From positions 2,310,963 through 2,374,962 of the forward strand of contig NZ_KN050846.1 of assembly GCF_000746845.1 (NCBI RefSeq): a DNA stretch of 64,000 nucleotides, read 5' to 3'. The notes under the pieces are model-generated. The model saw only the letters and a list, made by a program, of their open reading frames with translations. It ran no database searches and was not told where the DNA came from. Shown piece after piece: positions 571 through 28,100 of this stretch. The position numbers and the translations under genes are program-made. Position 1 is the stretch's first letter, and each line of letters begins with the position of its first letter. This DNA comes from Altibacter lentus. GTDB taxonomy: Bacteria > Bacteroidota > Bacteroidia > Flavobacteriales > Flavobacteriaceae.

Positions 571-613
571 ATAATCACTAAAACCCTTATTCAATAAGGG
601 TTTTAGTGATTAT
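571..613. repeat. Perfect 19-bp inverted repeat with 5-nt loop
   Basis: The arms (571-589 and 595-613) are exact reverse complements around the loop TTCAA, and the sequence is AT-rich with a CCCTTA/TAAGGG core. No T-run follows, so it is not a classic intrinsic terminator. A downstream stretch repeats CACTGGCA/CAGTTTGGCA-like words. It could be a recombination or attachment site, or a transcript end. Confidence 0.7.
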
Positions 614-679
614 GTACATTTCTGGCACAATCACTGGCATACAGTTTGGCATAAGATATATAAACAATAACAATGTCCT

Positions 680-859: not shown

Positions 860-877
860 CATTAGAAAACAAAAGAA

Positions 878-1024
878 ATGATTTTTTACGAATTAAAAAT
901 TTTCCTAGTTAGTAAGAACGAAGAACAAAAAAAACTAAAATTTAATACCCTTGGGACAAGCCCATATAGGTTTACAAGCAAGCGTCATTTAAGAAATAGA
1001 GACTTAATAATCAATCCATTTTAA
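878..1024 (+). CDS. Small hypothetical protein (48 aa)
   Basis: ATG to TAA, 19 bases after the preceding small gene. The product begins MIFYELKIFLV and then is strongly basic with a TSKRHLRNRD segment. No family is recognised. It is kept because it lies co-directionally between two other small ORFs with tight spacing. It could be a leader peptide or spurious. Confidence 0.35.
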   Translation: MIFYELKIFLVSKNEEQKKLKFNTLGTSPYRFTSKRHLRNRDLIINPF

Positions 1025-1035
1025 ATAATAATATT

Positions 1036-1158
1036 ATGAATGCACTATCAACAATAGCATGCAAGGCTTCTCAAAAGTTTAAAACCAAAAAACCAACGAA
1101 CAAGTATATCATAGAAAAGTATCGAGAGAGAAGTATTGTCAATCGTCTTTTTAAATAA
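1036..1158 (+). CDS. Small basic hypothetical protein (40 aa)
   Basis: ATG to TAA, 11 bases downstream of the previous small ORF and 39 bases before the glutamate dehydrogenase gene. The product is Lys/Arg-rich (KFKTKKPTNKYIIEKYRERS) and might bind nucleic acid or be a translated leader. No family is recognised. Confidence 0.35.
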   Translation: MNALSTIACKASQKFKTKKPTNKYIIEKYRERSIVNRLFK

Positions 1159-1197
1159 CCACAACTAAAAAAAATCAGCTTTAAACGATTTATAATT

Positions 1198-2508: not shown

Positions 2509-2523
2509 TAATAAAATTTAAAA

Positions 2524-2961
2524 ATGAACATCATGAAATATGGAAGCTTAATATTAGAAAAAAAAGAATATGTGTACTTAAAACGCATACTCAATGTATC
2601 TGGCTATGCAGAAGATTTTGAAACTCAGAAATCACTCCAACGGTTGAGCGAGGAACTTAGGAATGCCCAAATTGTAGATGAGCAGGAAATGCCAGAGGAT
2701 GTAATTCGGTTCAATAGTAAAATTATGGTGTATTCGGAAAATGGTTGGGAAAGAACACTTCAGTTGGTCATCCCTTCCGAAAAAGATACCAAGCAGGATA
2801 AAATTTCCATCCTTACCCCTATGGGGGCAGCACTATTTGGTTATTCACAAGGAGATACCATAGAATGGGATTTTCCTTCTGGCAAACAGCAAATAAGGAT
2901 TGTAACAGTTACACAAAATGAAAAGAAAAAAAAAATTGAAACATCTTTTTATAAAAATTAG
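2524..2961 (+). CDS. GreA/GreB C-terminal-domain protein, Rnk-like
   Basis: The 145-aa product ends in the FKBP-like domain shared by GreA/GreB and Rnk: LVIPSEKD, then ISILTPMGAALFGYSQGDTI and a basic end. This domain binds RNA polymerase. The long GreA coiled-coil finger is missing and replaced by a short N-terminal helical region (QRLSEELRNAQ), as in Rnk, so transcript cleavage is unlikely and modulation of polymerase more plausible. It follows gdhA by 15 bases and precedes a coiled-coil gene by 3, so it is co-transcribed. A second ATG at 2536 is an alternative start. Confidence 0.75.
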   Translation: MNIMKYGSLILEKKEYVYLKRILNVSGYAEDFETQKSLQRLSEELRNAQIVDEQEMPEDVIRFNSKIMVYSENGWERTLQLVIPSEKDTKQDKISILTPMGAALFGYSQGDTIEWDFPSGKQQIRIVTVTQNEKKKKIETSFYKN

Positions 2962-2964
2962 ACT

Positions 2965-3393
2965 ATGGAAACCTTTCAGAATGAAATATACAGTCACGAT
3001 TCTGATATTGACGTAACACATAAGATCAACTCGATTGAATTGGACAACTGGATCAATCATCTAAAATACATCAAGAAAGAGCTAAATAATTTAATTGGCC
3101 TTTGTAATACAAATCTGGACCAACGATTGGAGGATATAGAAGTACGACAAAAATTTCAGAAGAAAGAAAATGAAAATGATGCATTATTATCTGCGCTATA
3201 TAAATATATGAACGCAAGAAGCGAAATCATAGAGTGTGAAGATACCCAGTGTGACATGGCATATATTAATGAGCATGAAAGTTACAGAAGAAGCTATTTA
3301 TACCATTTGGATAAATATAGAAGATTAAAGGATGAATTTTTTAGTAAGGTGCAGGGCAGATTTACGTTACTGAATCTCACTACCCAAACATAG
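2965..3393 (+). CDS. Coiled-coil hypothetical protein (142 aa), paralogue A
   Basis: Begins three bases after the Rnk-like gene. The product is acidic, soluble and mostly helical, with heptad-like spacing across IELDNWINHLKYIKKELNN and a second helix near residues 100-130. Its closest visible relative is the next gene: both start with IEL-x-x-WI-x-x-L and end with a FxxLKxx-type helix. I do not recognise the family. The TAG stop is followed in the same frame by the next gene's TTG start after two codons. Confidence 0.65.
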   Translation: METFQNEIYSHDSDIDVTHKINSIELDNWINHLKYIKKELNNLIGLCNTNLDQRLEDIEVRQKFQKKENENDALLSALYKYMNARSEIIECEDTQCDMAYINEHESYRRSYLYHLDKYRRLKDEFFSKVQGRFTLLNLTTQT

Positions 3394-3399
3394 TGTCAT

Positions 3400-3789
3400 T
3401 TGGCAATCGAATTAACATTTCGAGCAAACGCTCATAGAAGACTTTGTATCAAAAAAGATCTTATTGAATTGAGCCAGTGGATTGATACACTATCCAGCAT
3501 TAATGTTGAGTTAGGTTATTTAATACTTATTGATAAGCAGCTCATTAAGGATAATTCTATCACCGTTGATCTTCAGGGTTTACGCCGAAAGAACACGTTA
3601 TTAATGGGAACTCTTTGCAGATATGAACAAGAACTGAATACGGAATATGAATTCGGAAAAAAAGAATACAATGTAACTCGGGCAAAAGAGCATGAAAAAA
3701 AACGAGATGTCAATTCTGCTTTCATTCAAGAATTTACGCAACTTAAAAAAAGGATGTACATTAAATTAAGCAAGTATCGATGGAGATAA
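3400..3789 (+). CDS. Coiled-coil hypothetical protein (129 aa), paralogue B, TTG start
   Basis: It uses a TTG start 6 bases after the upstream stop. The first internal Met is near residue 70, which would delete the conserved half. The architecture matches the upstream gene: LIELSQWIDTLSSINVEL, a central charged helix and a C-terminal helix rich in Lys/Arg. The pair is probably a tandem duplication that has diverged widely. It is likely the last gene of the gdhA operon, followed by 136 AT-rich bases. Confidence 0.6.
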   Translation: MAIELTFRANAHRRLCIKKDLIELSQWIDTLSSINVELGYLILIDKQLIKDNSITVDLQGLRRKNTLLMGTLCRYEQELNTEYEFGKKEYNVTRAKEHEKKRDVNSAFIQEFTQLKKRMYIKLSKYRWR

Positions 3790-3925
3790 AAAAATGGATT
3801 TGATGATAATTTTTATTTTACATAATATTATGAATTATAATAATTCAATTACTATAGCAAAGAAGTAAAGAAATAATTCCAAAATTGTAAATTTAGTCTT
3901 TGACAGATGAATCAATTATATATAA

Positions 3926-4753
3926 ATGGAGCAGCCGATAAAGATATTTAGGTTTAATACTGAAGATGCAGTAAAAGTTGCTTCATCAAGTAACGAGCCT
4001 CATACTCATGATTTTGAAGAAATTCTTATCGGCATGGATGGTTCTATAGAACATTTTATTGATTTTGAGACTACAATTGTTCACGCTCCATACGTTTGTT
4101 TTGTAAGTAAAGGTAAGGTTCATAGAGTAAAACCAATTTTAAAAGATGGCAAGTGCGATGTTTGGGTCATAAGATTCCACAGTGAATTTGTGGCTGAAAT
4201 TATTTTTCAACTCTACGCCGCCTTTCATAACAATTCCAATATTTTTTGGCCTGTTGAAAGACTTACGGGACGACTACCAGTTTTGACTGAAATGATGTAT
4301 AATGAATTAACAATAGCAAACCCTAGTTTTTCCATTATTCGTCACTTGCTTAATGCTGTTATATCGATTGTAATGTCAGAAAAACAGCAGCAACAGAGTG
4401 CAGTTATTTCTACAAATCAAAATGAAACGTTCACTAATTTTCTTTCTATTTTAGAAGAAAATTTTCGCCGTCCTTTAAGTGTTGGTTTCTATGCAGAAAA
4501 GCTATTTATGAGCGCTCGGAATCTTAATTTAATTTGCCAAAATATTCTTCAACAAAGTGTGTCTGAAATCATTGAAACCAGGAAGTTAATTGAAGCCAAG
4601 AACTTATTAACTTCCACCGACAAAACCATCGCCGAAATAGCATACGAATTGGGCTATAATGAAAACTCTTACTTCTCGAATGTCTTCAAAAAAAAATCTG
4701 GACAGACACCCGGTGAATTTAGGGAAGAGATGAGAAGTCTTTTAACTTCCTAA
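3926..4753 (+). CDS. AraC family transcriptional regulator with cupin-like sensor domain
   Basis: The 275-residue protein has an N-terminal cupin-type ligand domain (EPHTHDFEEILIG near residues 25-37, with the first metal/ligand His pair) and a C-terminal AraC double helix-turn-helix from about 170 on. The second motif is the family signature IAEIAYELGYNENSYFSNVFKKKSGQTPGEFR. It stands alone in front of a co-directional run of redox-related genes (4853-11233), which makes it a candidate local regulator. Effector unknown. Confidence 0.9.
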   Translation: MEQPIKIFRFNTEDAVKVASSSNEPHTHDFEEILIGMDGSIEHFIDFETTIVHAPYVCFVSKGKVHRVKPILKDGKCDVWVIRFHSEFVAEIIFQLYAAFHNNSNIFWPVERLTGRLPVLTEMMYNELTIANPSFSIIRHLLNAVISIVMSEKQQQQSAVISTNQNETFTNFLSILEENFRRPLSVGFYAEKLFMSARNLNLICQNILQQSVSEIIETRKLIEAKNLLTSTDKTIAEIAYELGYNENSYFSNVFKKKSGQTPGEFREEMRSLLTS

Positions 4754-11737: not shown

Positions 11738-11920
11738 ATGTTGACGAAATCAAAATTGAAAGAACAGATTGAAAATTTTCCCGAGGAATTTTCGATAGAT
11801 GAACTTGTTGAACGATTAATACTAGTTGAAAAAATTGAACGCGGTAATCTTCAATCTGAGAATGGAGAAACTATTTCAGAATCAGATTTGGATAATGAGA
11901 TTGAAAAATGGTTCGAATAA
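11738..11920 (+). CDS. Putative antitoxin of a ParE/RelE-type pair (60 aa)
   Basis: A small acidic protein: KSKLKEQIENFPEEFSIDELVERLILVEKIERG, then an acidic tail ending EIEKWFE. The size, charge and 13-bp overlap with the next gene fit the antitoxin of a type II module. No DNA-binding fold is certain, although the first 40 residues could form a short helical dimer. Confidence 0.7.
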   Translation: MLTKSKLKEQIENFPEEFSIDELVERLILVEKIERGNLQSENGETISESDLDNEIEKWFE

Positions 11921-12204
11921 ATTGGACTTTACAGGCTACCACTGATTTAAAAAATATTGCTGAGTATATTTCAAAAGACTCAAAGAAGTATGCAAGATTT
12001 CAAGTCATTAGAATTAAATCACGGACAAAAGTTTTGAAGTCTCGAAGCTACGCCGGAAAAATTGTTCCTGAGATTGAAAAACAGAATATTAGAGAGTTGA
12101 TTGAAGGTAATTATAGAATTATTTATAAAGTAGTTGATAATGATCGGATTGATATATTGACGATACATCATTCCGCAAGAGATTTATTACGAAGAAAAAT
12201 ATAA
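11908..12204 (+). CDS. RelE/ParE family toxin
   Basis: The 98-aa product matches the RelE/ParE fold: IKWTLQATTDL-like start (INWTLQATTDLKNIAEYISKDS), the central RIKSRTKVL helix, RELIEGNYRIIYKV and a terminal ILTIHHSARDLL. These toxins poison either gyrase (ParE) or ribosome-bound mRNA (RelE). The missing fully conserved catalytic RelE set makes ParE-like action more likely, but this is inference. It overlaps its antitoxin by 13 bp. Confidence 0.85.
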   Translation: MVRINWTLQATTDLKNIAEYISKDSKKYARFQVIRIKSRTKVLKSRSYAGKIVPEIEKQNIRELIEGNYRIIYKVVDNDRIDILTIHHSARDLLRRKI

Positions 12205-14378: not shown

Positions 14379-15617
14379 ATGAACAAGCATCACGTATTTT
14401 TTAGCTACTCCAGAGAGAACTCCGACTTCGTACTCGAACTCGCAAAGAAACTCCGAAATGCCGGCGCCCTGGTCTGGCTGGACCAGTTAGACATTAAAAC
14501 AGGGGAGCGCTGGGACAAGTCCATTGAGCAGGCACTGTCTGCCTCAGATGTCCTCATGGTGGTACTATCCAAAGCTTCTGTGGAATCCAATAACGTGATG
14601 GATGAAGTTTCGTACGCCCTGGAAGAGGGTAAAAAAGTGCTGCCCATACTGCTGGAAGAGTGTGACGTCCCCTTTCGCTTGCGGCGCTTGCAGTTTGCCG
14701 ATTTCAGTCAGAATCCGGAAGACGGGATGAAAGTGTTGATCGCGGCTCTGGATCTGGATCGTGATAAAGTGGCCCCTGTAGCCGAAGGATCCACCCTGGC
14801 CAAAACGGTGGCCGAAACCCAAAAAACAACGGGCACTTCAAAAACAGCCGATCCCGGGGTCGCCACGCCCTCCCAAGTACAAAATGCACCCATACATAGG
14901 GAAGCGACGCCCTCCGCGGCCGCCTCCCGAAAGCCTTTTCTCTATATAGGGATCGCCCTCCTCGCCGTAGCAGCGATATGGGCGGTGTACCATTTCACTT
15001 CCGGACAAGGCACAGATAAAATGGCATTGTGTAAGTCAGATTGGACCGAACTGGAAACTGAAATGTCCGGTGGGGAAGATTTCAACGAATTGGCGGCCCT
15101 ACGCAGGCATATCGAATTATATGCACCCTGTCCGCATCAGGACGAAGCCATGGATCGCATCTCCTTCCTAAAGGCCATGGGCGGGGATGCCGGAACGACA
15201 ACTGCCATAGATACGGTCGATGGCACTACCCCGGCAGCCTCCACCACCTCCGGGGAGGGAACATCCAATGGAAGTACGACCAATGAGAAGAGCCAGACAA
15301 CAACTAAGAACAAACCGGCGGACGTGGTGGAGACGGTGGTAAAGGCACAGCCGCTTACCGGAAGGAACGTGACGCGCGTAGCGTATGACGGCGGCTATTT
15401 TAAAGAGCTGTCGGCCACGGAATGGGTGGAAATAAACAACGACAATGAGCGGACCTTTAAACTCTTAAAACGCGACGACACTACCATCTATCTGGGCGAA
15501 GGCCCCGATGTACGCCTCACCTTGGACCTTGGCAGGTCGATCATTTACTATGCAGATGCCAATACCGAACGCTTTCACCTCTATACCATCACCACGACCT
15601 CCGGGAAAGAGAATTGA
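14379..15617 (+). CDS. TIR domain protein with a single transmembrane segment
   Basis: Residues 1-125 form a TIR domain: box 1 VFFSYSRENSDF, the BB-loop region WLDQLDIKTGERW, then a helix with the likely NADase glutamate in DEVSYALEEGKKVLPILLEE. A linker rich in Thr/Ala/Pro (130-185) leads to one transmembrane helix (about 187-207, YIGIALLAVAAIWAVYHF), then a ~200-residue C-terminal part with a CPH/Cys pair and no recognised fold. So the TIR is predicted cytosolic and the tail periplasmic. The base composition is clearly GC-richer than the flanks. Bacterial TIRs cleave NAD as immune effectors or act as adaptors; which applies is unknown. Confidence 0.85.
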   Translation: MNKHHVFFSYSRENSDFVLELAKKLRNAGALVWLDQLDIKTGERWDKSIEQALSASDVLMVVLSKASVESNNVMDEVSYALEEGKKVLPILLEECDVPFRLRRLQFADFSQNPEDGMKVLIAALDLDRDKVAPVAEGSTLAKTVAETQKTTGTSKTADPGVATPSQVQNAPIHREATPSAAASRKPFLYIGIALLAVAAIWAVYHFTSGQGTDKMALCKSDWTELETEMSGGEDFNELAALRRHIELYAPCPHQDEAMDRISFLKAMGGDAGTTTAIDTVDGTTPAASTTSGEGTSNGSTTNEKSQTTTKNKPADVVETVVKAQPLTGRNVTRVAYDGGYFKELSATEWVEINNDNERTFKLLKRDDTTIYLGEGPDVRLTLDLGRSIIYYADANTERFHLYTITTTSGKEN

Positions 15618-16861: not shown

Positions 16862-17968
16862 ATGACAAAAATTAAAAAAGGCATAAAAAACCAGTCCTCT
16901 TTAAAAGTAGTTGACTTCTTCTGTGGAGCAGGAGGGGTAACATGTGGGTTTAAGAATATTGGAATTGAAGTTCTAGGTGGGATAGACATAGACCCACAGT
17001 TTGAAAAAACATACGAGGAAAATAATCAAGCGAAATTTCTGAATAAGGATGTTTCTAATTTGGCTCCAGAGAGTTTGAAGGATTTATTACCTATTTTCAC
17101 CAATCAAGACGACTTGGTGTTTGTAGGTTGTAGCCCTTGTCAATATTACTCTAATCTTAAATCGGATAAGACAAAGTCTAAGAAAGGAAGGCTTCTGTTA
17201 GATGATTTTAAAGAATTTGTTCTCTATTACAAACCCGGTTTTGTTTTTATAGAAAATGTCCCTGGGCTTGAAACTAAGAAGGGCAGTCCCCTTCATAAGT
17301 TCAAGTCAGCATTAAGACGCGAAGGTTATTCCTTCGATCAGAAAATTTTAAATGCTAAGTATTTCGGTGTTCCTCAAAATAGAAGGCGATTTGTACTTAT
17401 CGCAAGCAGATTAACGAAGGTACAGTTGCCAAAACAAGTTAGGAGCAAGGATAATACCGTGAGCGTTTCTGATGCTATTGGAGACTACAAGATTTTCCCA
17501 GCTGTTAAAGCAGGAAATGAAGATAAATCAAAATTTATTCATTCTGTTTCCAAGTTATCTCCATTGAACTTAGAGCGTGTTCAAAGAACACCTAAAAACG
17601 GGGGTAGCCGGAAAGCTTGGGAGAATGATGAGAGACTTCAGCTAGAGTGTTACAAAAATCATGATGGTCATTATGATGTCTATGGTCGCTTGCATTGGAA
17701 CAGACCTGCTCCTACTCTGACAACAAGGTTTATTTACACCAGTACTGGAAGATATTCTCACCCTGAACAGGACAGAGCACTTTCTTTAAGAGAAGGTGCT
17801 ACGCTTCAGTCCTTCCCGTTGAATTACAACTTTTATTCACCAAACAAAGGCGCAATTGCTACAATGATTGGAAATGCTGTTCCTCCTAAATTGGCTGAGG
17901 CAATTGGAAATTCTTTATTACAACATTGGACTGAATGGCAAAATTTAGAGCAAAGGCAAGAGCAGTAG
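16862..17968 (+). CDS. C5-cytosine DNA methyltransferase
   Basis: The 368-aa protein has the ordered motifs of the Dcm family: I DFFCGAGGVTCGF, II GGIDID, IV GCSPCQYYS with the catalytic Cys, VI FIENVPGL, VIII QNRRRFVLIAS, a target-recognition region (about 200-290) and X GNAVPPKLAEAIG. Motif IV has YY where FS is usual. It transfers a methyl group from SAM to C5 of cytosine; the target is unknown. It overlaps the next gene by 34 bp. Start is the ATG; a TTG three bases upstream only adds one residue. In context it may protect the host DNA from the nuclease-like third component. Confidence 0.95.
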   Translation: MTKIKKGIKNQSSLKVVDFFCGAGGVTCGFKNIGIEVLGGIDIDPQFEKTYEENNQAKFLNKDVSNLAPESLKDLLPIFTNQDDLVFVGCSPCQYYSNLKSDKTKSKKGRLLLDDFKEFVLYYKPGFVFIENVPGLETKKGSPLHKFKSALRREGYSFDQKILNAKYFGVPQNRRRFVLIASRLTKVQLPKQVRSKDNTVSVSDAIGDYKIFPAVKAGNEDKSKFIHSVSKLSPLNLERVQRTPKNGGSRKAWENDERLQLECYKNHDGHYDVYGRLHWNRPAPTLTTRFIYTSTGRYSHPEQDRALSLREGATLQSFPLNYNFYSPNKGAIATMIGNAVPPKLAEAIGNSLLQHWTEWQNLEQRQEQ

Positions 17969-20838
17969 AACTTTTGGGGAAAGGCCAAATTGCCGACCTA
18001 CCGACCGCCATTACCGAACTTTGGAAGAATGGATACGACGCCTATGGCGATCATTTAAGTGCAAGTCTCTTTCTTTCTGGTTATAGAGACACACAATCAC
18101 CTTTTTTTGTCTTAAGCGATGATGGAGTAGGTATGTCGAATTCCGACATTCTTGAAAAATGGATTGTTTTAGGAACCGACTCCAAAACAAGAAAAACTAT
18201 TCCTGAAAAGCCTTCGTTAGCTACGCTAAACAAAACCCCACGGATGCCAACCGGCGAGAAAGGGATAGGGAGATTATCAGTGGCGTATTTGGGAAATCAA
18301 ATGCTAATGTTGACCAAGAAAATTAATGAACCGCTACAGGCATTGTTTTTTGATTGGCGCATACTGGAAAACTATCACCTCTACATTGATGACATCGAAA
18401 TACCCATACGGCCTATCAAAGATGCTTCCGAATTTGATTCTGCTTGGAAAGAATTACTAATGGACTACAAAAATAACTTCCCCTTAAAAGATGATGATCC
18501 AAGGCAGGAAAAGTGGGAAGAACAACCTGATCTAAAGACTGAAATACTGAAAGATTTGGGTAACATTAAGGTGCCAACGTACTTTCTATCTGAAGTAATC
18601 GAGCCGCTATGTTCCAATACCGCACATGGTACTAAATTTGTGGTTTTTGATCCCATCGATCAATTGCATTTTCTAAAGAATCATGCAAAGCCCGATGAAG
18701 AAAATGAGGACACTATCGAATTCATTCGCTCCGGGTTATCTGGTATGTCCAATGTGTTCAAGGAAGAAAAGCCTGTTTTTGACACCTCCTTTCTGATTTA
18801 TGATTCCGAAATACCAACGGATTTCATTCACCAACGGGAGTTTTTTGATCACGAGGATTTTAAATATGCCGATCACTTGATTGAAGGTTCTTTTGATGAT
18901 TACGGTGTATTTACCGGTAATCTGAAAATCTACAATGAGGAGGTGAAAAACCATTTGTTTAAACCAAACAAAAAAAAGGCAAAGACCTCTTTTGGACCTT
19001 TCCATATTAAAATTGCATCCATTCCCGGGGCGGGTCAGCCAACACTTTTGAACCCGGAGCTATACAAAAAGATGAATGACAAACTGGATCGTGTTGGCGG
19101 GTTATATCTATATAGAGATGGATTCAGGATTTTACCTTATGGCCGCAAAGATTGGGATTTTTTACAATTTGAGGAACGAAGAACCAGAGGAGCCGGTCAT
19201 TATTTCTTCAGTTATCGAAGAATGTGGGGGTACATTGAACTATCTCGGGAGGAAAATAGCCGATTGATTGACAAGGCAGGACGGGAAGGGCTTATCAATA
19301 ATAAGGCCTACAGAGAATTTAAAGCTACTTTGGTATTCTTCTTCATTGACCTTGCTAGAAAGTACTACGGTAAAAGAGCTGAGTTTGATATAAAAACAGA
19401 GCAACAAGAGAAAATTGAGCAACAAAAGCAGGAAGAAGAGAGGGAGAAAGAAGAACGTAAGCAGTTTGTCGCAAACCTTAAAGCGTATCCTAATAAACTT
19501 GAAGAGTTACAAAATGAACTCAATCGGTTAACAGAGGAGCTTGAGAAAAAAACTGGTGAATTATTCGAAGGATATGAGAAGATAGAAAATATTTTGGCTC
19601 GGATTGATGAAATCAAAATCAAAATAAACGAGCTTCAGCTTGAACCACCCAAGAAATTTATTCCTAATGATTCTCAGCGCAAACAACTTTACGATTACCG
19701 AAAGCAACGAGAGTCTATAGAGCGCAAAACAGTTAGCCATGCGAATGCCGTTATTGTGAAAGCGCAAGGTAAGCTTAAAGAAAAAGAGTTGTTAGCCGAA
19801 TTCCGACGCAAACTTGCAGCCTATGAAGAAGCATTGATATCCATCATTCAGGAATACGAAGAACAACTTCAGATCTCTTTCAATCGTCTGCAAGCCGAAT
19901 TTCATCAAGAAAAATCCGATGAACTGGAGGCTTTTAGAAAAGAATATGGAGTGATTCAACCTGCCACATCAAATAGAGAAATAATATATTCCAATCTAAA
20001 GGCAATAGAGGAAATCCATCAAAGCAGATCACAGCGCATAAAAGATCGAATACAGCCCTTTGTAGAACACCTTTCGCGCTTGTCCATAGGACTGGATGAA
20101 GATGCATTGGTAGGTTATTATAAGTTGGAATTTCTCAAACTGCGAGAGAAATGGCAGGAAACACAGGAATTGGCTCAGTTGGGGATTGCCGTAGAAATCA
20201 TTGACCATCAGTTTAACGCCCTTTATTCGAAATTAGCGAAGATCATAGACGCCATGAAGGGATTCGTTATTGATGGAGAAGATAGTGCAACTACATACGC
20301 ACTTCTTCGAACCACATTCGAACATCTGGAAAATAACTACAAGCTACTCACTCCACTCTACCGCACCACTAACCGAATACGAAAAGATATTTCCGGGCAG
20401 GATATATTTGATTATGTAGAAAAATTCTTTGGGAAAGAATTCCGTGAAAAAGAAATTCATGTGGTCGGTACTCCTGTGTTTTTAAAGGCGTCATTCTTTA
20501 CATATGAGTCAATTCTAAAACCTGTTTTTATTAATGTAATCAACAATGCAGTATATTGGCTCAATTCGGTTGAAGATCGTAAACTCCTTTTCGACTTCAT
20601 CGATAATAAAATTGTAATTGCCAATTCTGGAGAACCTATTGACGAGGTTTATATAAAAGAAGGAGATTTATTCAAGGCATTCTTCTCAAGGCGACCCAAA
20701 GGTCGAGGGATAGGTTTGTACTTGGCTAAAACGACTCTAAACAGTGTTGGCTATGAAATAACCGCGACACAGGATCCGAAATACAATCAATTGGACGGAG
20801 CCTGTTTCCTTATTTACGAAGAAAATCATGAATCCTAA
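17935..20838 (+). CDS. Double-GHKL protein: MORC/Hsp90-like ATPase domain plus histidine-kinase-like core
   Basis: A 967-residue soluble protein. The N-terminal GHKL ATPase has the Bergerat motifs E28-L-W-K-N32-x-x-D35-A (N box), DDGVGM (62-67) and GEKGIGRLS (107-115), as in MORC/MutL/Hsp90. A long charged coiled coil spans roughly 480-700. The C-terminus looks like a sensor kinase: an H-box-like helix with IIDH758QF, then a second GHKL fold with INNAVYW (869-875), NSGEP (897-901) and GRGIGLYLAK (923-932). So one chain may sense (MORC-like clamp) and signal (DHp-HATPase). It overlaps both neighbours, so the operon is translationally coupled. Autophosphorylation is inference. Confidence 0.85.
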   Translation: MAKFRAKARAVELLGKGQIADLPTAITELWKNGYDAYGDHLSASLFLSGYRDTQSPFFVLSDDGVGMSNSDILEKWIVLGTDSKTRKTIPEKPSLATLNKTPRMPTGEKGIGRLSVAYLGNQMLMLTKKINEPLQALFFDWRILENYHLYIDDIEIPIRPIKDASEFDSAWKELLMDYKNNFPLKDDDPRQEKWEEQPDLKTEILKDLGNIKVPTYFLSEVIEPLCSNTAHGTKFVVFDPIDQLHFLKNHAKPDEENEDTIEFIRSGLSGMSNVFKEEKPVFDTSFLIYDSEIPTDFIHQREFFDHEDFKYADHLIEGSFDDYGVFTGNLKIYNEEVKNHLFKPNKKKAKTSFGPFHIKIASIPGAGQPTLLNPELYKKMNDKLDRVGGLYLYRDGFRILPYGRKDWDFLQFEERRTRGAGHYFFSYRRMWGYIELSREENSRLIDKAGREGLINNKAYREFKATLVFFFIDLARKYYGKRAEFDIKTEQQEKIEQQKQEEEREKEERKQFVANLKAYPNKLEELQNELNRLTEELEKKTGELFEGYEKIENILARIDEIKIKINELQLEPPKKFIPNDSQRKQLYDYRKQRESIERKTVSHANAVIVKAQGKLKEKELLAEFRRKLAAYEEALISIIQEYEEQLQISFNRLQAEFHQEKSDELEAFRKEYGVIQPATSNREIIYSNLKAIEEIHQSRSQRIKDRIQPFVEHLSRLSIGLDEDALVGYYKLEFLKLREKWQETQELAQLGIAVEIIDHQFNALYSKLAKIIDAMKGFVIDGEDSATTYALLRTTFEHLENNYKLLTPLYRTTNRIRKDISGQDIFDYVEKFFGKEFREKEIHVVGTPVFLKASFFTYESILKPVFINVINNAVYWLNSVEDRKLLFDFIDNKIVIANSGEPIDEVYIKEGDLFKAFFSRRPKGRGIGLYLAKTTLNSVGYEITATQDPKYNQLDGACFLIYEENHES

Positions 20839-22480
20839 TTTTGACACAATTGCTTCGACTATTCTACAGAATTCGATAAAGTCGGCCATTTTTATTGATG
20901 ATCGAGTGCTCCTGCCATTTGAAGCTAAAACCGATCCCGATATTTTGGACTATAGCAACCTCATAGCCCCATTCGAAGAAAGGGGATGCACGTTGTCCTT
21001 TTACCGGTTTGGCAATGAATGGAGAACGAAAGCAAATTTTCTGTTTAACAATAGAGACCTCCTCATTTTGGACTGGCAACTGCGAAAAAATCAAGATACC
21101 TATTCGGATACCTTCGCCATACTTCAGGAAGCTGTACAAACCAACAGCCTGCATTTCTGCTGTATTTATACGGATACCAACCCAAATGCTTTTATTGACA
21201 AGATTATTTTTCCCGTACTGTACTACTTCGGGTACTGCATAAAATTAACCGGTGCCGAGCTTAGCGTCATAAGGAAGCAATTCATCGGTTTTTGTGATGG
21301 GGAAGGCTTGGATTCAGAAGAAGTAATTGCAGTCCTGAACCCATTGTTCAGGGAATATATTCTTTACTCAACCGACTCTACAAAAAAGCGTGAACTAACT
21401 AAACAGATACTGGATTATCTGAAAGAGTCATTTTCAGATTTCCAACAAATCAGAAATGGGGTTAGGGAAATTACAGGAGACTTAGGTCGTTCTTTCGCTG
21501 CCCTGGCTTATGCTTTTGAAGAACAATCCATTCCAATTTGCGAGATTACACACAGAATTCGCATTAGAAAGACCGAATCCGACAACTGGCGTTTGTATGT
21601 GAATAATACGATTATAGCTATTGCTAATAAAGACTCAATTCAAGAACAGCTTTTTTATGAAGAGTTTAAAAACTCCATTGTGGATGAGCACAATATCTTT
21701 CTAACCCTCCTAGGCTTGGAAATGCGAAATGCCTTTCGCAAAGGCTCCGGCTTCATTGGAAAGGAATTGGACGAAATAGACGAAACAGCATTCTTCTATC
21801 ACCACCAAAACATCCAACCCAAAGATGCTTTCTACGAATTTTTAAGGGAATTATGGGTAGATCAAGCTACACACTTTCTTAGTACCGATGAGCCTACATT
21901 GTACTCAACTTTGGAAGAATATAAGGCTAACAATAATATCGACAGTAAGGTAAATGATTTTGAACAGCAAATCCAATCCGAACTTATATTTCAAGAGGCT
22001 CTTGTTAAGCTCAATAATTTCTACAATCAATTACGATTTAACCCGCAGGGCGAAGAACTATTGAGTTTCGGTGATGTGTTGAAACTCAAAAAAGGGAATA
22101 ACACCATTGAATATGTAATGTGCATCACTCCGTTGTGTGATTGTGCCGATCCAGTTAAGATAAAAAGACAATACTTTTTTGTAAGATATGAAACAGTAAT
22201 TGAAAGTTATTTAAATTCCTTGAAAAAGGCTGAAGGAAAGTATATTTCCTATTTACGTTTGGAAGATGGAATATTATGTATAGATTGGGGCGAATGTAAA
22301 CCGTTTTCAATGTACGTTAGAACTCCTAAGCTTGGTAGTCTTTCAAAAGTGTGTTATCAAAACGAATGGTTCGAATTGGAACATTTGGGTCGTATTAAGG
22401 AAAATTTTGCTCAACGTATTGCCAATAAGGCATTAAGCTACCCTGCCAGGGTTGGTGTTTCATTGGCTCAAATTATCTAG
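20828..22480 (+). CDS. Receiver-domain protein partnered with the GHKL kinase-like protein
   Basis: A 550-aa protein. Residues 19-150 resemble a receiver domain: the acidic pair D24-D25 in AIFIDDR, and the putative phospho-acceptor Asp82 in LLILDWQL at the end of the next hydrophobic strand, with a later CCIYTDT strand taking the place of the conserved Thr/Ser strand. The remaining ~400 residues are unrecognised, with a CITPLCDCADP cysteine cluster near 435-445 and KRQYFFVRY. There is no DNA-binding domain, so it is not an ordinary response regulator. It starts 11 bp inside the upstream gene, which fits direct partnership. Confidence 0.75.
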   Translation: MNPNFDTIASTILQNSIKSAIFIDDRVLLPFEAKTDPDILDYSNLIAPFEERGCTLSFYRFGNEWRTKANFLFNNRDLLILDWQLRKNQDTYSDTFAILQEAVQTNSLHFCCIYTDTNPNAFIDKIIFPVLYYFGYCIKLTGAELSVIRKQFIGFCDGEGLDSEEVIAVLNPLFREYILYSTDSTKKRELTKQILDYLKESFSDFQQIRNGVREITGDLGRSFAALAYAFEEQSIPICEITHRIRIRKTESDNWRLYVNNTIIAIANKDSIQEQLFYEEFKNSIVDEHNIFLTLLGLEMRNAFRKGSGFIGKELDEIDETAFFYHHQNIQPKDAFYEFLRELWVDQATHFLSTDEPTLYSTLEEYKANNNIDSKVNDFEQQIQSELIFQEALVKLNNFYNQLRFNPQGEELLSFGDVLKLKKGNNTIEYVMCITPLCDCADPVKIKRQYFFVRYETVIESYLNSLKKAEGKYISYLRLEDGILCIDWGECKPFSMYVRTPKLGSLSKVCYQNEWFELEHLGRIKENFAQRIANKALSYPARVGVSLAQII

Positions 22481-22491
22481 TAACCAAAATT

Positions 22492-24294
22492 GTGAGCGAA
22501 TTATACACACTGATAGAGACAATAAAACACATCAAGTCAGGAAATCAATTTCAACGATACATTGATTTCATCCAATTCCCCTTTTACCGTAACATAGAAA
22601 TCGATACACGGATAACTTTTGATTTCCCGTTGACCGTGTTTATCGGTCAAAACGGTTGTGGCAAGAGTTCTTGTTTACATGCCCTCTATGGAGCACCTGA
22701 CAGATACACTCCATATAAATTTTGGTTCGATACCAAAGTCGATCCCGTAAATTATTATGATGAACAGCGTAAGCGACATTCCTTTTGGTACTCATTTCAG
22801 GAAGGCAAACAAACCAAAGAGGTAATTAAAGCGAGAATTAAGAGGCAAAACGATCCGAATTATTGGGAAACCAGCAGACCCTTGGCATGGGCAGGAATGG
22901 GGACGAGAAGTAATCGAAATGAGAGAGATAGTCCCATTGTCAAAAATGTAGTTTACCTTGATTTTCGTTCAGAGTTAAGCGCCTTTGATAAATATTTCTA
23001 TTTTGGTAATCTAAAATTTAGCCGAGCGAGAAATAAACAAGAATACCTAAGAGGGAGATCATCCTCTCTGAACAAAATATTTACAGGTGAGAAGCCCATA
23101 ATTAACTCCAAAACAAGAGCATTAAATGATCCCTTAGAGACACTATCAGCTAATGAGCTCAAATGGATTTCCTTTGTTTTAGGAAGACAATATGTAAGCG
23201 GACTTTCGGTCTTACATGAGCTGTTCAGAAACGAAGGTTATTCCGTGCTGTTTCAAACTAATTTTGCCAAATACTCGGAGGCTGTTGCGGGAAGCGGTGA
23301 AATTGCCGTGGTAAGGTTGGTTAGGGAAGTATTAGCTGCAGAAAGCTATTCATTAATATTATTGGACGAACCGGAAGTATCATTACACCCCGGAGCGCAG
23401 ACCAGACTTAAATTATTCCTACTCAACCAAATCAAGAGCAAAAAACACCAAGTGGTGTTAACCAGTCATTCACCATCCATTGTAAAAGGTCTTCCTAAGG
23501 AGGCGATAAAGGTGTTCTATCAGAACCCCGGAAATGGAAGGTTCTTGGTAAAAGAAAACCTTACCCCTGAAGAAGCGTTTTTTTACATCGAATTTCCGAT
23601 TGAAAACCGAAAGAACATTGTTGTGGAAGATGTACTGGCACAGGAAATTGTTTCCGGGGTATTGAGTAAAATGGGTGAGGAAACGGAAAATCTATTTAAT
23701 GTAAAGTTCAATCCCGGTGGAGAATCCGTGATCAAAAAAGATTTTATCACTGTCTTTTGTCGAGAACAAAATTCGCAGGACTTCGTGTTCTTTGACGGAG
23801 ATCAACAGCCAGAGAATTCACATCTCGACTGGAAAACTATTCCAATGGCTGACTTAACTGTTGAAAATCTCAAATCAAAGATTCGAGAACAAACCGGTGA
23901 AGAGATTAAGTTTTCTGTTGATGGCAGCCAAGGAGCAGGAAATCAACCCCAACAACTGGAATTACAGAAATTATTTTTGGACTATTATTTGTCCAACGTC
24001 TTCTATCTTCCAAAGCAAATTCCAGAGGATATTATTTGGAACGATGTATTCGCAGAAGCCCTGATCAAAGGAGTTATCCAGGATGACACAATAATAGAAC
24101 AGAAGCTGGTAGAACTCATGACCATTCAAGTAACAAAGCAAAAATTCGCTTTCGTTTCCGACCTGATTCAGGGAGGAAGCAATGCAGAGACTATTTTAAG
24201 TGTTCAAAGGCAGTTTTTACAACGATGGTTAAATGCTGAGAATAATGATTTTGTGACTATCAGAGATTATATTTTAGCAATTGTAAATTCTTAG
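22492..24294 (+). CDS. OLD-like AAA ATPase with TOPRIM-type nuclease segment
   Basis: A 600-residue protein with a GTG start 11 bases after the receiver gene. It has an ABC-type split ATPase: Walker A GQNGCGKSS (52-60), signature GSGE (267-270), Walker B ILLDEPE (D292-E293), and H-loop TSHSPS (H326). After that the pattern VVE379D and FFDGD (435-437) matches the Glu and DxD acids that bind metal in the TOPRIM fold of OLD-family nucleases. This arrangement, ATPase then TOPRIM, is the effector type of several anti-phage systems. Nuclease activity is inferred from the three acids only. Confidence 0.82.
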   Translation: MSELYTLIETIKHIKSGNQFQRYIDFIQFPFYRNIEIDTRITFDFPLTVFIGQNGCGKSSCLHALYGAPDRYTPYKFWFDTKVDPVNYYDEQRKRHSFWYSFQEGKQTKEVIKARIKRQNDPNYWETSRPLAWAGMGTRSNRNERDSPIVKNVVYLDFRSELSAFDKYFYFGNLKFSRARNKQEYLRGRSSSLNKIFTGEKPIINSKTRALNDPLETLSANELKWISFVLGRQYVSGLSVLHELFRNEGYSVLFQTNFAKYSEAVAGSGEIAVVRLVREVLAAESYSLILLDEPEVSLHPGAQTRLKLFLLNQIKSKKHQVVLTSHSPSIVKGLPKEAIKVFYQNPGNGRFLVKENLTPEEAFFYIEFPIENRKNIVVEDVLAQEIVSGVLSKMGEETENLFNVKFNPGGESVIKKDFITVFCREQNSQDFVFFDGDQQPENSHLDWKTIPMADLTVENLKSKIREQTGEEIKFSVDGSQGAGNQPQQLELQKLFLDYYLSNVFYLPKQIPEDIIWNDVFAEALIKGVIQDDTIIEQKLVELMTIQVTKQKFAFVSDLIQGGSNAETILSVQRQFLQRWLNAENNDFVTIRDYILAIVNS

Positions 24295-24363
24295 AATATA
24301 CTTTTAACATTAAGATATATCTTGTAATGAAGATTAGCTTCAGAAAAATTTATTAATTACAAA

Positions 24364-24389
24364 AAAAGAGGCGGTTTCCCGCCCCTTTT
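24364..24389. terminator. Bidirectional hairpin terminator
   Basis: AAAAGAGGCGG-TTTC-CCGCCCCTTTT forms a stem of five GC pairs extended by AAAAG/CTTTT, with A- and T-runs on both sides. It separates the four-gene operon from the convergent gene at 24400. Confidence 0.75.
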
Positions 24390-24399
24390 CGCATCATGA

Positions 24400-25203
24400 C
24401 TAAGCAATCGTAGCGATCGCTAGGGATTGTGCCCCCTGTAAGGGGTAATACTCGCCATCGGCGGTCTCTTGGAAGAAGAGCACGCCAATTACGCTCAGCG
24501 ACACCACCGTATCGGGCAGCGCCTCGGTCAGCCCCAGATCCGTGGTCAGGATTGCTTCCTCCGTGGTAGTCACATCCGCCGGGAGCAATTCCCCCAAGGT
24601 CACCTGTCGGCTACCGTTCAGTTCTGGTTCCACCGGAACATACGCCTGGAACGCATCATCATACACATGGTCACTCAACAAGGTGGTGGCCAATACAAAC
24701 TGATAGTGGGTGGTACCCTCCGGCAGTTTCAGCTCGGTCTCCATCTCAAAGGCCGGCACCGTCCAGGTCACTACAGAGCGGTTTGCGTCGATGGAAGGCG
24801 CATCATAGAGTGCCGAAAACACACTGTCAAACGCCCGTTCTTTATTGAACTCAAAGCCGTGGAACAACGGTTTGTTCGCCCCCATGATAAAGGAACGCCT
24901 GCCCCGTTTCCCGGGTCCCTTAGAACTCATCCGCCTAAAGAGCCCCGTCAGTCGGGCCGAAGTGGTCGTGCCACCCATCCTTTTGATCAACGAACCCAAC
25001 GATTTCCGCAAGGTCATCGACATCAAGGCTGCCCCTGTAAACTCGTTCATATTCTCACGAGTCCGTTGAAACTTCGGATCGTTCTCGATACGTTGCTTGT
25101 TCAAACTTCCTTTTTTCCGAACCAGTTGCTTTCCTTTTCGCTCATAGAACGTTAGATCATCAAAGGTTCCTTCTAACTTGATAAAACTTTTTTGTGTACC
25201 CAT
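24400..25203 (-). CDS. Conserved flavobacterial protein of unknown function (267 aa)
   Basis: The N-terminal 110 residues are very basic with the pattern KSFIKLEGTFDDLTFYERKG...RTRENMNEFTGAA, then LRKSLGSLIKRM and a GPGKRGRRSFIMGANKP segment. The rest is a beta-rich, sandwich-like domain (VTWTVPAFEMET, HYQFVLATTLLSD). I recall this N-terminal pattern as recurrent in Bacteroidetes genomes without a known function. There is no signal peptide. It is strikingly GC-richer than the defence operon that it faces. Possibly a nucleic-acid-binding or structural protein. Confidence 0.8.
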   Translation of the reverse strand: MGTQKSFIKLEGTFDDLTFYERKGKQLVRKKGSLNKQRIENDPKFQRTRENMNEFTGAALMSMTLRKSLGSLIKRMGGTTTSARLTGLFRRMSSKGPGKRGRRSFIMGANKPLFHGFEFNKERAFDSVFSALYDAPSIDANRSVVTWTVPAFEMETELKLPEGTTHYQFVLATTLLSDHVYDDAFQAYVPVEPELNGSRQVTLGELLPADVTTTEEAILTTDLGLTEALPDTVVSLSVIGVLFFQETADGEYYPLQGAQSLAIATIA

Positions 25204-25383
25204 AATTTCTAGGATTTAAAAGTTAAACATAAATGCCGGTGTGCGAATGCCATGTCAAAAGGAGTCTGCAGCACCCTCCCGAACAGGGCATTTTTTCGAA
25301 CACCAACAGGTCAAACATAGAACGGCATTTTCAAACATCCAAACACCCCTGTCCGATTTGGCCGCTTTTGGACACACTTTACC

Positions 25384-25450
25384 GGAATTGTCCACTATTG
25401 TCCGTTTTTGTCCGTTTTTGGTCACTTTGTCCGTTTTTGACCGCTTTTTC
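25384..25450. repeat. TGTCCGTTTTTG direct-repeat cluster
   Basis: TCCGTTTTTG occurs three times within 45 bases, with decayed copies (GTCACTTTGTCC, GACCGCTTTTTCC) around them. It lies upstream of the divergent unknown gene at 24400-25203 and could be an expression or protein-binding repeat. Confidence 0.55.
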
Positions 25451-25499
25451 CAAAATACCTATCCCCAGGCTATCCCCACCTTACCCCCGGGGAGTGAGT

Positions 25500-25578
25500 A
25501 GTGATTGGTGAATGGTGATTGGTGATTGGTGAATGGTTAGTGGTGAGTGATGAATGGTGAGTGGTGAAGAGTGAATGG
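25500..25578. repeat. GTGATTGGTGAATG low-complexity tandem repeat
   Basis: About eleven variants of G(T/A)GA(A/T)TGGT in direct order, degenerate in length. It has no coding sense and is probably a slipped-strand expansion. Confidence 0.55.
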
Positions 25579-25942
25579 AATGGTTTTTTCTGTACTTCGG
25601 ATTAAACAGCTAGCTTTAATTTTTATTGCTAAGTAAGAATATTTATCTAGTTTGAATATTACGATACGAAGGACAACCCTTTTACGCCAGAATATGCACA
25701 CAAAACTTCGAGATCCAGGAGGCCACCGCCGGTGGCTGACGCGGAGTTTTGGGGGCGGTTCCCGGCATCAAAGGCCGGGAAATTCCTCGTAAAAGGCCTC
25801 CTTTTTTTCGTTCTTTTTTTGGAGGAGCAAAAAAAGAAAATAAAAAATAAAAAAAAACAATACTTCTCGATACAATGCACCTCCGGCGCATCACTCGAAG
25901 TGACATCTAAATGATTAATTGAAGAACATCCTTTTTATCAGC

Positions 25943-26176
25943 CTTGCCTCCGACGAGGTGCCAAAGGCACTGAGAGGAAGGCATTTTAAAAAAGCTCGGA
26001 GATTCAGTGAGCATAGCGAACGCCGAGTTTTTGCATTGGTTTGGAATGCGTGAGCATTTCAAAATGCCTATGAAATCGAAGATTCACGAGCACCGAAATA
26101 TCAAATCAAAAAGTGCGAGTAAAAGGAAAAAAGGTACTTTTCGACTGCCTCCGACGAGCATAGCGAGAGGAAGGCA
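25943..26176. repeat. Short hairpin repeats of the CCTCCGACGAG...GAGAGGAAGGC type
   Basis: Two copies of TGCCTCCGACGAG-x-GAGAGGAAGGCA (25944-25984, 26140-26176) are separated by hairpins such as CTCGGAG...CGCCGAG. The reverse-complementary ends suggest small dispersed palindromic elements. Confidence 0.45.
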
Positions 26177-26671
26177 CTATTTCTTTTATACCAGCAAATG
26201 CGAAGCATTCATGAATTCCTTTAAAAAGCAATATAAACGCATGAATAAAAGAAAGTTGAATAATAGAAGAAAACTGGTTAAAAACAAAAACCTACTACTT
26301 CAGCTTTAATTCAGCTTTACTTCGGCTTTAATTCGGGTATACTTCGGCTATACCTTGGCTGTAAGCAAGGTGAACATCGGTCATAAGGCGGCTGCAATAG
26401 AAGGCAGTGTACGATCGAAAGCCGCGTCAGAAAAGGGCTTAACACGATGTGACATGTAGGTGATACACTAAAAAACCCCTCATACCTAACATGGCCTTCA
26501 GAGACCTTAAAACTGTACGAAAATTCTAGAATGTGTTAAAATTTATACGAAAGGGGTTCAGACAAACGTTTTTTGTTCTATGCGTGCATAGTATATGCGA
26601 CAAGCCCCATGAAGTTTCACCCGATGCAGATCCACCGCCCCAATGGATGGGCATCCTAAAAAAAGAAAGAC

Positions 26672-27069: not shown

Positions 27070-27357
27070 ATGAAAAGACGTAATTTTATTAAGAAATCGG
27101 GACAGGCGCTCCTAGCCGCCACCACCATTTCAATTACAGGAAGCCTTATCGCTTCTTGTAGTTCAGACGACGATACATTCTTTGACGACGGCTATTACGG
27201 AGATGGCTACTACGACGACGGGTATTATGACGATGGGTATTATGATGATGGCTACTACGATGACGGCTACTATGATGACGGTTATTACGATGACGGCTAC
27301 TACGACGACGGTTATTACGATGACGGCTATTATGATGATGGTTACTACGACGATTAA
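27070..27357 (+). CDS. Tat-type lipoprotein made of DGYY(D/G) pentapeptide repeats, short form
   Basis: The 95-aa product has a twin-arginine-like start (KRRNFIKKSG), a hydrophobic segment and lipobox SLIASC (Cys30), a short acidic linker, then eleven DGYY(D/G) repeats to the very last residue (40-94). There is no C-terminal domain, unlike the next gene, with which it shares the first 30 residues almost exactly. So it may be the product of a duplication that lost the 3' part or a natural repeat-only form. Repeat codons differ silently, which suggests selection on the peptide. Likely exported and lipid-anchored. Function unknown. Confidence 0.75.
   Translation: MKRRNFIKKSGQALLAATTISITGSLIASCSSDDDTFFDDGYYGDGYYDDGYYDDGYYDDGYYDDGYYDDGYYDDGYYDDGYYDDGYYDDGYYDD
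27187..27354 (+). repeat. 15-bp coding minisatellite, 11 units (DGYY repeat)
   Basis: Fifteen-base units read GAY-GGN-TAY-TAY-GAY, or GGA for the last codon of the first unit. Third positions vary freely while the peptide stays constant. Confidence 0.9.
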
Positions 27358-27389
27358 CCCGTTCAAAAAGGGACCCAACAACACACAAT

Positions 27390-28100
27390 ATGAAACGCAG
27401 AAAATTTATTAAGAAATCGGGGCAGGCCTTACTGGCAGTTTCTACAGTGTCAATAACAGGCCATCTCATTACCTCTTGTACGCCCGAAAGTTCCGAAGAC
27501 TTCTTCGGGGACGGCTACTATGGCGATGGCTATTATGGGGATGGGTATTATGATGATGGCTATTACGACGATGGTTACTACGATGACGGCTATTACGATG
27601 ACGGGTATTACGACGATGGGTATTACGATGACGGATACTACGACGATGGCTATTATGACGATGGCTATTATGACGACGGTTATTACGACGATGGATACTA
27701 CGATGACGGGTATTACGACGACGGCTATTATGATGATGGCTACTATGACGACGGCTATTACGGAGACGCTCAGGAATTGATCGATATTCTGTTGGACGGT
27801 ACCTGGTTTGTACAGATGTATATAGACAGCGGAAGCGACCAAACGGCCACCTATGCAGGCTACAACGTCGATTTCATGACCGCCAATAATGTGGTGGCTA
27901 CCAACGGGTCGAACACCAATAACGGTGTCTGGCTGGTAAGCAGCAACGGACAACAGTTGAACCTGGCCTTTAGCGGCTCACCGTTCGATGAGTTCAATGA
28001 CGAGTGGGATGTCTTTAGTGTAGAGCCCACCCGCGTGGAGGTCCGTGACGTAAGTGGCGGCGGCGGCGGAACCGATATCCTCGTCTTCGAAAAACTATAA
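27390..28100 (+). CDS. Tat-type lipoprotein with 17 DGYY repeats and a C-terminal globular domain
   Basis: The 236-residue protein has the same export start as its neighbour (KRRKFIKKSG, lipobox Cys30), 17 DGYY(D/G) repeats (41-125) and a 110-residue C-terminal domain (127-236). That domain starts AQELIDILLDGTWFVQMYIDSG and has strands NGVWLVSSNGQQLNLAF and VEPTRVEVRDVSGGGGGTDILVFEKL, in the style of small lipocalin-like Bacteroidetes domains. The Asp/Tyr repeats could bind Ca2+ or metals, or form a stalk. The gene follows 32 bases after the short copy. Unknown function; the architecture itself is well supported. Confidence 0.85.
   Translation: MKRRKFIKKSGQALLAVSTVSITGHLITSCTPESSEDFFGDGYYGDGYYGDGYYDDGYYDDGYYDDGYYDDGYYDDGYYDDGYYDDGYYDDGYYDDGYYDDGYYDDGYYDDGYYDDGYYDDGYYGDAQELIDILLDGTWFVQMYIDSGSDQTATYAGYNVDFMTANNVVATNGSNTNNGVWLVSSNGQQLNLAFSGSPFDEFNDEWDVFSVEPTRVEVRDVSGGGGGTDILVFEKL
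27510..27764 (+). repeat. 15-bp coding minisatellite, 17 units (DGYY repeat)
   Basis: Seventeen units of the same degenerate 15-mer as in the upstream gene. The first two and last units carry Gly instead of the second Asp. Confidence 0.9.

Follow-up and report, generated by a model that had tools for sequence, protein, structure and literature searches.

Genes for Response_reg_2 proteins have been found linked to genes for GHKL proteins in 91.6% of 644 regions, as reported in the available text of Bellieny-Rabelo 2021 (PMC8011034). In the same text, a C5 methyltransferase is described as frequent upstream, the neighbouring genes are said to include Vsr, HNH, and other nucleases, 174 of 222 kinases share the commonest architecture, that of group 1, and the function of these genes is left open. 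Here, we describe an operon with a kinase of this group 1 type in a stretch of 64,000 nucleotides from Altibacter lentus (contig NZ_KN050846.1, positions 2,310,963 to 2,374,962; hereafter, the window). Its genes encode, in this order, a C5 methyltransferase (gene 1, protein P0001), a MORC-type GHKL/kinase protein (gene 2, P0002), a receiver protein (gene 3, P0003), and an OLD-like protein in which an ABC ATPase is joined to a TOPRIM domain (gene 4, P0004; ABC-TOPRIM or, for short, ABC).

With moderate confidence, we read this operon as a modular restriction-modification-like anti-phage system, in which a methyltransferase–OLD pair has been combined with a control module of MORC-kinase and receiver that can be exchanged. 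In this reading, we infer the role in defence, the nuclease activity, the recognition of the mark, the phosphorelay, and the gating. The C5 methyltransferase would mark the host DNA, and the OLD-like protein would be an ATP-gated nuclease, attacking DNA (or killing the cell) in the absence of the mark or upon a block of the methyltransferase. Together, the two proteins would form one unit, which would also exist as a two-gene cassette in temperate phages, and the MORC-type GHKL/kinase and the receiver would form a second one, swapped between operons together. The GHKL clamp would sense foreign or unmarked DNA and the kinase–receiver unit would set the firing of the effector, with the phosphate probably passing from H758 of the kinase to D82 of the receiver.

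Exchange of gene pairs among related loci

Four loci reveal that parts of the operon occur in other combinations. The block that the window shares with Lunatimonas salinarum (locus L029) is one piece that begins at the start codon of the kinase gene and breaks off shortly before the stop codon of the receiver gene; the kinases are 88.8% identical and the receivers 88.4%, and the methyltransferases 46.5%. The genes after the receiver in L029 code for AAA_5 (a weak match, below the cut-off), DUF1016/YhcG, and DUF2357-PDDEXK_7 proteins, and we read them as McrBC-like from these domains. In genome G518 (L115), the block shared with the window is that of gene 4, the ABC proteins being 91% identical, the methyltransferases 74%, and the kinases 30%. 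The methyltransferase and ABC genes of L111 (genome G413) flank a gene for a GHKL protein that lacks HEF_HK, with a Vsr-like gene before them, a NOV_C-like gene (43%) after them, and no receiver-profile match in 20 kb. Finally, in L117 (genome G572), the methyltransferase gene, with its start 357 bases away from the contig end, is directly followed by the ABC gene; next come a Vsr-like gene, another methyltransferase-like gene, and a gene for an MvaI/BcnI-type endonuclease. No kinase or receiver was found in the fetched 12 kb of L117, and neither G413 nor G572 gave a HEF_HK match. These swaps argue that the window operon is a mosaic in which two or more units move separately, a structure that is apparent from the sequences.

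The wider family was collected by scanning the GTDB species collection for a pattern, and the best 80 loci of at least 442 confirmed relatives were picked by the likeness of their kinase to that of the window; the relatives include Chloroflexota, Pseudomonadota, and one Methanosarcina bin. Among near relatives, the kinase family is rare, being present in the genome of the window alone out of 99. Of 395 genomes from the phylum, nine (the window's included) had Response_reg_2 above the cut-off and eight more below it, and these eight below-cut-off PF19192 genomes (nine matches, of 17 genomes) were excluded. The 80 loci and eight from the 395-genome scan, minus the duplicates L046, L050, and L053, make a set of 85. 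A methyltransferase gene lies just upstream of the kinase in 79 of these 85 loci and a receiver gene follows the kinase in 82; the three loci without it (L074, L076, and L082) all have cut kinase frames. With these frequencies, in records of several phyla, the gene set is not due to chance, and the restriction-modification-like setting proposed in the first-pass annotation of this DNA is supported.

The slot after the receiver is invisible in 14 of the 85 loci, which were set aside, leaving 71 assessable loci. The slot was counted as occupied by a same-strand frame of at least 110 aa lying less than 200 bases after the receiver, a rule that misses small, distant, or opposite-strand genes. It is empty in 31 of the 71 loci, holds an OLD-like ABC-TOPRIM gene in six, and a different gene in 34. 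By type of first gene, there are ten Vsr, six ABC-TOPRIM, five HNH_2, and three NOV_C loci, two each with a McrB-like gene, another HNH gene, a second methyltransferase, or an unassigned gene followed by one for a protein-kinase-domain protein, and eight singletons, the family names resting on one to four members per type. According to these counts, the fourth gene is optional and variable. In 20 of the 40 occupied slots, the first gene is of the Vsr, HNH, or NOV_C type, which speaks for the restriction-like reading.

Where gene 4 is present, it varies with gene 1. In the seven ABC loci (the window included), the methyltransferases are 67–94% identical to one another and at most 62% to that of any other locus; the kinases of the same loci span 28–88%, reaching up to 89% to a locus without ABC, and no comparable identity gap is seen in kinases or receivers. 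The addition of L115 and L116 gave nine ABC loci. Over 70 shared loci, the ABC label changes twice on the methyltransferase tree and five times on the kinase tree, the shuffle mean being 8.6 on both, and none of 500 shuffles was as low on the methyltransferase tree. A clade of the nine ABC loci was not rejected for the methyltransferase by the approximately unbiased (AU) test (p 0.114) and was rejected for the kinase (p 7.9e-66), on quick trees of which that of the kinase was flagged for long branches meeting. The identities of the nine ABC proteins correlate with those of the methyltransferases (0.83, p 0.001), and less so with those of the kinases (0.25, p 0.09) and receivers (0.31, p 0.09), while kinase and receiver identities correlate with each other at 0.98 (p 0.0005). 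When the ABC–methyltransferase correlation was extended to 31 loci, excluding L166 for its split ABC frame, it was 0.79 (p 0.0005). As judged from these comparisons, gene 4 goes with the methyltransferase rather than with the kinase.

The same pairing is observed in viral contigs. An IMG/VR search with the ABC alignment gave at least 52 relatives, and the close set discussed here consists of the 40 nearest among the matches listed (L130–L169; E-value (E) 4e-66 or better). In this set, 39 of 40 loci encode a C5 methyltransferase, which in 36 adjoins the ABC gene directly; the one locus without it (L151) is on a contig that ends 2 bases after the ABC gene. Among the other frames of these loci, methyltransferase matches number 41 of 588. 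Grouped at 70% identity, the ABC relatives form 22 lineages, 21 of which have the methyltransferase. Kinase and receiver appear in L143 alone, and 38 of the 40 fetched loci hold a C5 methyltransferase but neither kinase nor receiver. Among the 12 weaker viral relatives in the matches listed, one has an adjoining weak methyltransferase-profile match. Among ten flanking proteins from four viral loci, matches to integrase, tail, repressor, replication, ParB-like, and portal families of phages occur, with at least one named phage family per locus; since phage families flank all four loci scanned, the viral loci fit temperate phages. In L132 (6857-10823, + strand), the ABC–methyltransferase pair comes directly after an integrase gene.

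With the single protein P0002, no confirmed kinase relative was found in the viral contigs. Plasmids yielded nothing with P0003 and eight partial weak matches with P0004; with the ABC protein of L153 they yielded 277 records, none spanning 80% of the query, and three weak relatives among them have no methyltransferase listed within 4 kb in the PLSDB gene tables, which are incomplete. Phage records gave no match to P0004 and three partial weak matches to the ABC protein of L140.

These results bear on the default reading of the operon, in which the OLD-like protein is the dedicated output of the receiver. In such a linear pathway, the MORC-kinase would phosphorylate the receiver, and the receiver would specifically release the OLD-like effector, as in Detocs. 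The gene order, the gene overlap, and the conservation of residues described below agree with it, as do the evolution of kinase and receiver as one unit (r 0.98) and the clustering of the ABC label on the kinase tree beyond that of shuffles. However, the same kinase–receiver pair (86% DNA identity) occurs with McrBC-like genes in L029, 31 of the 71 assessable loci have no fourth gene, ABC identity hardly tracks receiver identity (r 0.31, p 0.09), and 38 of the 40 viral ABC loci have a methyltransferase without kinase or receiver. The swaps and the viral pairs thus rule against a dedicated output as the default, and we consider the linear pathway improbable. The receiver as dedicated switch of the OLD-like nuclease, which was the view of the first-pass annotation, is also at odds with the kinase–receiver pairs that have no fourth gene (31/71) or a different one (34/71).

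Domains and conserved residues of the four proteins

The open frames were called by an in-house script, and their coordinates, together with those of the domains and shared blocks, are given in Table 1. All four frames of the operon announced in the first-pass annotation were found, on the plus strand and overlapping or nearly abutting: the overlap is 34 bases between genes 1 and 2 and 11 between genes 2 and 3, and a gap of 11 bases precedes gene 4. The four domain assignments made there (methyltransferase, MORC plus kinase, receiver, and OLD-like protein) agree with the Pfam and fold matches. The frame of gene 1 has 369 aa from a TTG at 16859, with an ATG at 16862 and the stop at 17968. The expected C5 methyltransferase motifs were located in P0001 as DFFCGAGG, PCQ, ENV, and QNRRR, and no other protein of the genome matches PF00145 at E 0.001. 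The gene set, the conserved residues, and the pairing of ABC-TOPRIM with a C5 methyltransferase are visible at the level of sequence.

Table 1. Coordinates in the window of the genes, domains, and shared blocks of the operon
Feature	Position	Strand	Basis
C5 cytosine DNA methyltransferase (P0001, gene 1)	16862..17968	+	PF00145 (DNA_methylase), E 1.6e-54
paraMORC/HEF_HK kinase-like protein (P0002, gene 2), 967 aa	17935..20838	+	
N-terminal MORC-type GHKL, HATPase_c_3, residues 24-148	18004..18378	+	E 1.4e-9
HEF_HK (PF19191) domain with H758, residues 748-814	20176..20376	+	E 6.8e-21
Response_reg_2 receiver protein (P0003, gene 3), 550 aa	20828..22480	+	PF19192, E 1.5e-18
Receiver protein C-terminal beta-rich domain, residues 416-523, with C437-D438	22073..22396	+	model
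OLD-like ABC ATPase-TOPRIM protein (P0004, gene 4), 600 aa, GTG start	22492..24294	+	AAA_15/AAA_21 (Pfam)
TOPRIM core, residues 374-437, with E379, D435, D437	23611..23802	+	conservation
Kinase–receiver block common to window and Lunatimonas salinarum (L029)	17934..22473	+	85.7% DNA identity
ABC-TOPRIM block common to window and genome G518 (L115)	22546..24276	+	89.0% DNA identity

The predicted two-GHKL kinase with a receiver partner is recognized in P0002 by HATPase_c_3, by HEF_HK (75 bits, the cut-off being 24.1), and by a weak HATPase_c match at residues 861-948 (23.2 bits, below the 26.4-bit cut-off), the Response_reg_2 gene adjoining. The H-box-like H758 noted at the outset is conserved in 84/84 kinases, and so are E28, N32, D62, G64, G66, N867, N871, G923, G925, and G927. 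In L022, a second related-looking set (131-4052, + strand) consists of a methyltransferase-like frame, recognized by eye, a 738-aa protein that matches the window kinase at residues 390-477, and a 393-aa protein that has a VLDDAFD motif and no Pfam match; the set may be a sister system whose methyltransferase is of another class.

In P0003, Response_reg_2 covers residues 16-119 (68 bits, the cut-off being 27). The D24-D25 pair and D82 of the receiver-like domain were located as proposed, D24 and D82 being present in 75/75 receivers and position 25 holding D in 44, E in 30, and N in one. The model of this protein (predicted local distance difference test (pLDDT) 88.4, predicted template modelling score (pTM) 0.86) displays a receiver fold interrupted by helices, which in a structural second look at mainly residues 15-288 matched PorX (Z 9.6, 116 residues, 3.0 Å); against viral structures, the model gave nothing at E 0.001. 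The C-terminal beta-rich domain holds C437 in 75/75 and D438 in 74/75 receivers, and has a weak Foldseek likeness to MazF (E 0.05). A search of its profile against solved chains retrieved no MazF; with a weak fold match and no profile match, the domain is at most a putative relative of MazF.

This domain is central to another explanation, according to which the locus holds two independent defences: a complete methyltransferase–kinase–receiver system that kills via the C-terminal domain of the receiver, and an OLD-like gene for which the same methyltransferase serves just as the antitoxin. The 31 of 71 assessable loci with just the three genes are consistent with it, as is a distinct beta-rich C-terminus with a nearly invariant Cys-Asp and some MazF likeness. 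Nevertheless, the sequence profile finds no MazF, the domain has no catalytic assignment, and genes of the Vsr, HNH, or NOV_C type come first in half of the filled slots. We regard this explanation as unlikely.

P0004 had been described as an ABC-type ATPase keeping the TOPRIM acids, and the alignment of its family agrees: the Walker residues K58, D292, and E293 are found in 51/51 members, and E379, D435, and D437 in all 49 rows with a letter there, the other two of the 51 rows being gapped. By Foldseek, its top match is the OLD nuclease 6p74 (E 1.2e-10), followed by GajA. It also matches PHROG 3940, whose function is unannotated, over residues 23-585 (E 1.4e-47), and its best PADLOC model is HEC-04 (E 5e-32, best stretch 213-517). 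By sequence profile, the best solved chain is AriA from PARIS, with 67 ATPase residues covered.

In a further alternative, the OLD-like protein would be a guard, that is, a PARIS-like abortive effector firing when a phage inhibits the methyltransferase, and not a cutter of unmethylated DNA. The tight pairing with the methyltransferase fits a guarded protein too, AriA is the best chain by profile (though over just those 67 ATPase residues), and TOPRIM/OLD nucleases are described as backup suicidal effectors in the available text of PMC12839542. In the same text, however, PARIS senses Ocr and cleaves tRNA via a separate TOPRIM protein, and nothing in the present data separates a guard from restriction. 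We consider a guard fairly unlikely, if somewhat less so than two independent defences.

Several observations weigh against a modular restriction-modification-like system. An ABC gene is found in six of the 71 kinase loci and no fourth gene in 31, so that genes 1–3 may form a complete system by themselves. Since none of 500 shuffles was as low on the kinase tree, the ABC label is nonrandom there too, and the AU result for the methyltransferase is no proof of a single clade, L111, L116, and L117 lying outside the main ABC clade. Because the receiver C-terminus is weakly MazF-like, kinase and receiver could themselves be the effector. Finally, the P0004 model is mediocre (pLDDT 73, pTM 0.53), and the window kinase, like 69/84 kinases overall, has Asn (N897) in the G1 box, where Asp is expected.

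A bolder proposal is that gene 4 represents a new OLD class tied to C5 methyltransferases, borne by phages as a pair and captured by a two-component pathway, whose portable MORC-kinase/receiver module could be fitted to different methyltransferase–nuclease pairs and would gate restriction by phosphorylation; we hold this to be possible, although doubtful. If one OLD branch is indeed tied to a C5 methyltransferase, the nucleases of that group would carry a self mark of their own, and their specificity could be tested simply. Moreover, near-identical kinase–receiver pairs on different methyltransferase–effector sets constitute a natural experiment, through which the role of HEF_HK/Response_reg_2 proteins becomes testable.

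Genomic surroundings of the operon

The GC content (guanine plus cytosine) of the operon is 37-40%, that at 27-30 kb of the window 45-51%, and that at 9-12 kb 29-36%; since the latter is lower still, composition alone says little. A genome of the same genus (G002) matches the window at 24361-25443 with 93% identity, the other flank being unmatched. Beside this flank in the congener (L182, 7019-9563, + strand), a C5 methyltransferase and an MvaI/BcnI endonuclease are encoded, on account of which the site of the operon may be a defence hotspot.

A TIR-domain protein is encoded about 1.2 kb upstream of the operon (14379-15617, + strand; TIR_2, E 6.3e-29) and a ParE-type toxin about 4.7 kb upstream (11908-12204, + strand; E 8.9e-14). 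Downstream, a terminator-like hairpin of 12 pairs on the minus strand (24363-24390) lies between the operon and a convergent gene (24400-25203). The region 25480-26370 is made of pieces repeated in the same genome (35 matches including itself, up to 98% identical) and also in congeners, with no Rfam match. At 27070-28100 (+ strand), two adjacent genes encode proteins with similar N-termini followed by long DGYYD repeats.

Comparison with known systems

Genes 1–3 share with the HEF_HK/Response_reg_2 group, as presented in the available text of PMC8011034, the domains, the adjacency, the group 1 kinase, the upstream methyltransferase, and the conserved His and Asp. HEF_HK with its His, an adjoining Response_reg_2 with its Asp, and an upstream C5 methyltransferase were all found in the window, and these genes belong to this described and functionally open group. 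The difference lies in gene 4, AAA, ABC, TOPRIM, and OLD being absent as words from the main text of that paper. A text search on the two domain names returned this paper and one other. Since three of the genes are published as a group, a wholly new four-gene system is rejected, and with it the initial impression that the set had no precedent, the full four-gene set not having been found in print. In the literature searched, outside which Krishnan et al. 2020 (ABC-ATPase conflict systems) lies, no description was found of the pair of OLD and C5 methyltransferase or of its union with the HEF_HK module. A figure legend in the available text of PMC13092281 (DefensePredictor) presents a predicted system with HATPase and REC, which may or may not belong to the window family.

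Regarding type II restriction-modification, the pairing and co-variation of methyltransferase and ABC are observed in the family, and a shared recognition site is conjecture. Detocs, like the window operon, has a kinase and a receiver in a defence setting; unlike it, to our knowledge, Detocs has no methyltransferase. No Detocs match was obtained in a scan with PADLOC 2.0.0, a 2023 library in which the presence of Detocs models is unchecked.

P0004 contains an ABC ATPase with Walker residues and C-terminal TOPRIM acids, as do OLD family nucleases, and is predicted to be a nuclease; its model is nearest to those of the Thermus scotoductus OLD nuclease (6p74) and GajA. In the available text of PMC10568477, OLD proteins of classes 1–3 and a proposed class 4 are found alone, beside a helicase, in retrons, or split into AriA and AriB, whereas P0004 is found with a methyltransferase; the words methyltransferase and methylase are absent from the main text of that paper. 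Gabija (class 2), which has an adjoining gene for a UvrD/PcrA/Rep-like helicase, was rejected, the upstream neighbour of gene 4 being the receiver and the downstream gene (24400-25203) having no Pfam match at E 0.001. PARIS (class 4) was rejected because the ATPase and TOPRIM motifs stand in one 600-aa protein and not in separate AriA and AriB; fused AriAB proteins are reported to exist (available text of PMC10568477), and a PARIS resemblance is thus possible.

HEC-04/IbfA, like P0004, is an ABC ATPase fused to TOPRIM, and is the best PADLOC model for P0004 and ten relatives, with best stretches within residues 187-537, without the Walker A region. HEC-04 is a one-protein defence, which protects Escherichia coli against T4 and T5, and not against T7 or lambda, according to the available text of PMC12111858, a precedent that favours a defensive role, whereas the relatives of P0004 adjoin a C5 methyltransferase.

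Lastly, the available text of Iyer et al. 2008 (PMC2292703) on MORC/paraMORC systems names helicases and RE-fold/HNH nucleases, and the word receiver is absent from its main text. In these systems, GHKL genes stand beside those for cytosine methylases and for Vsr or other nucleases, as they do in the window family. The present finding has a bearing on the presence of MORC ATPases in such restriction systems.

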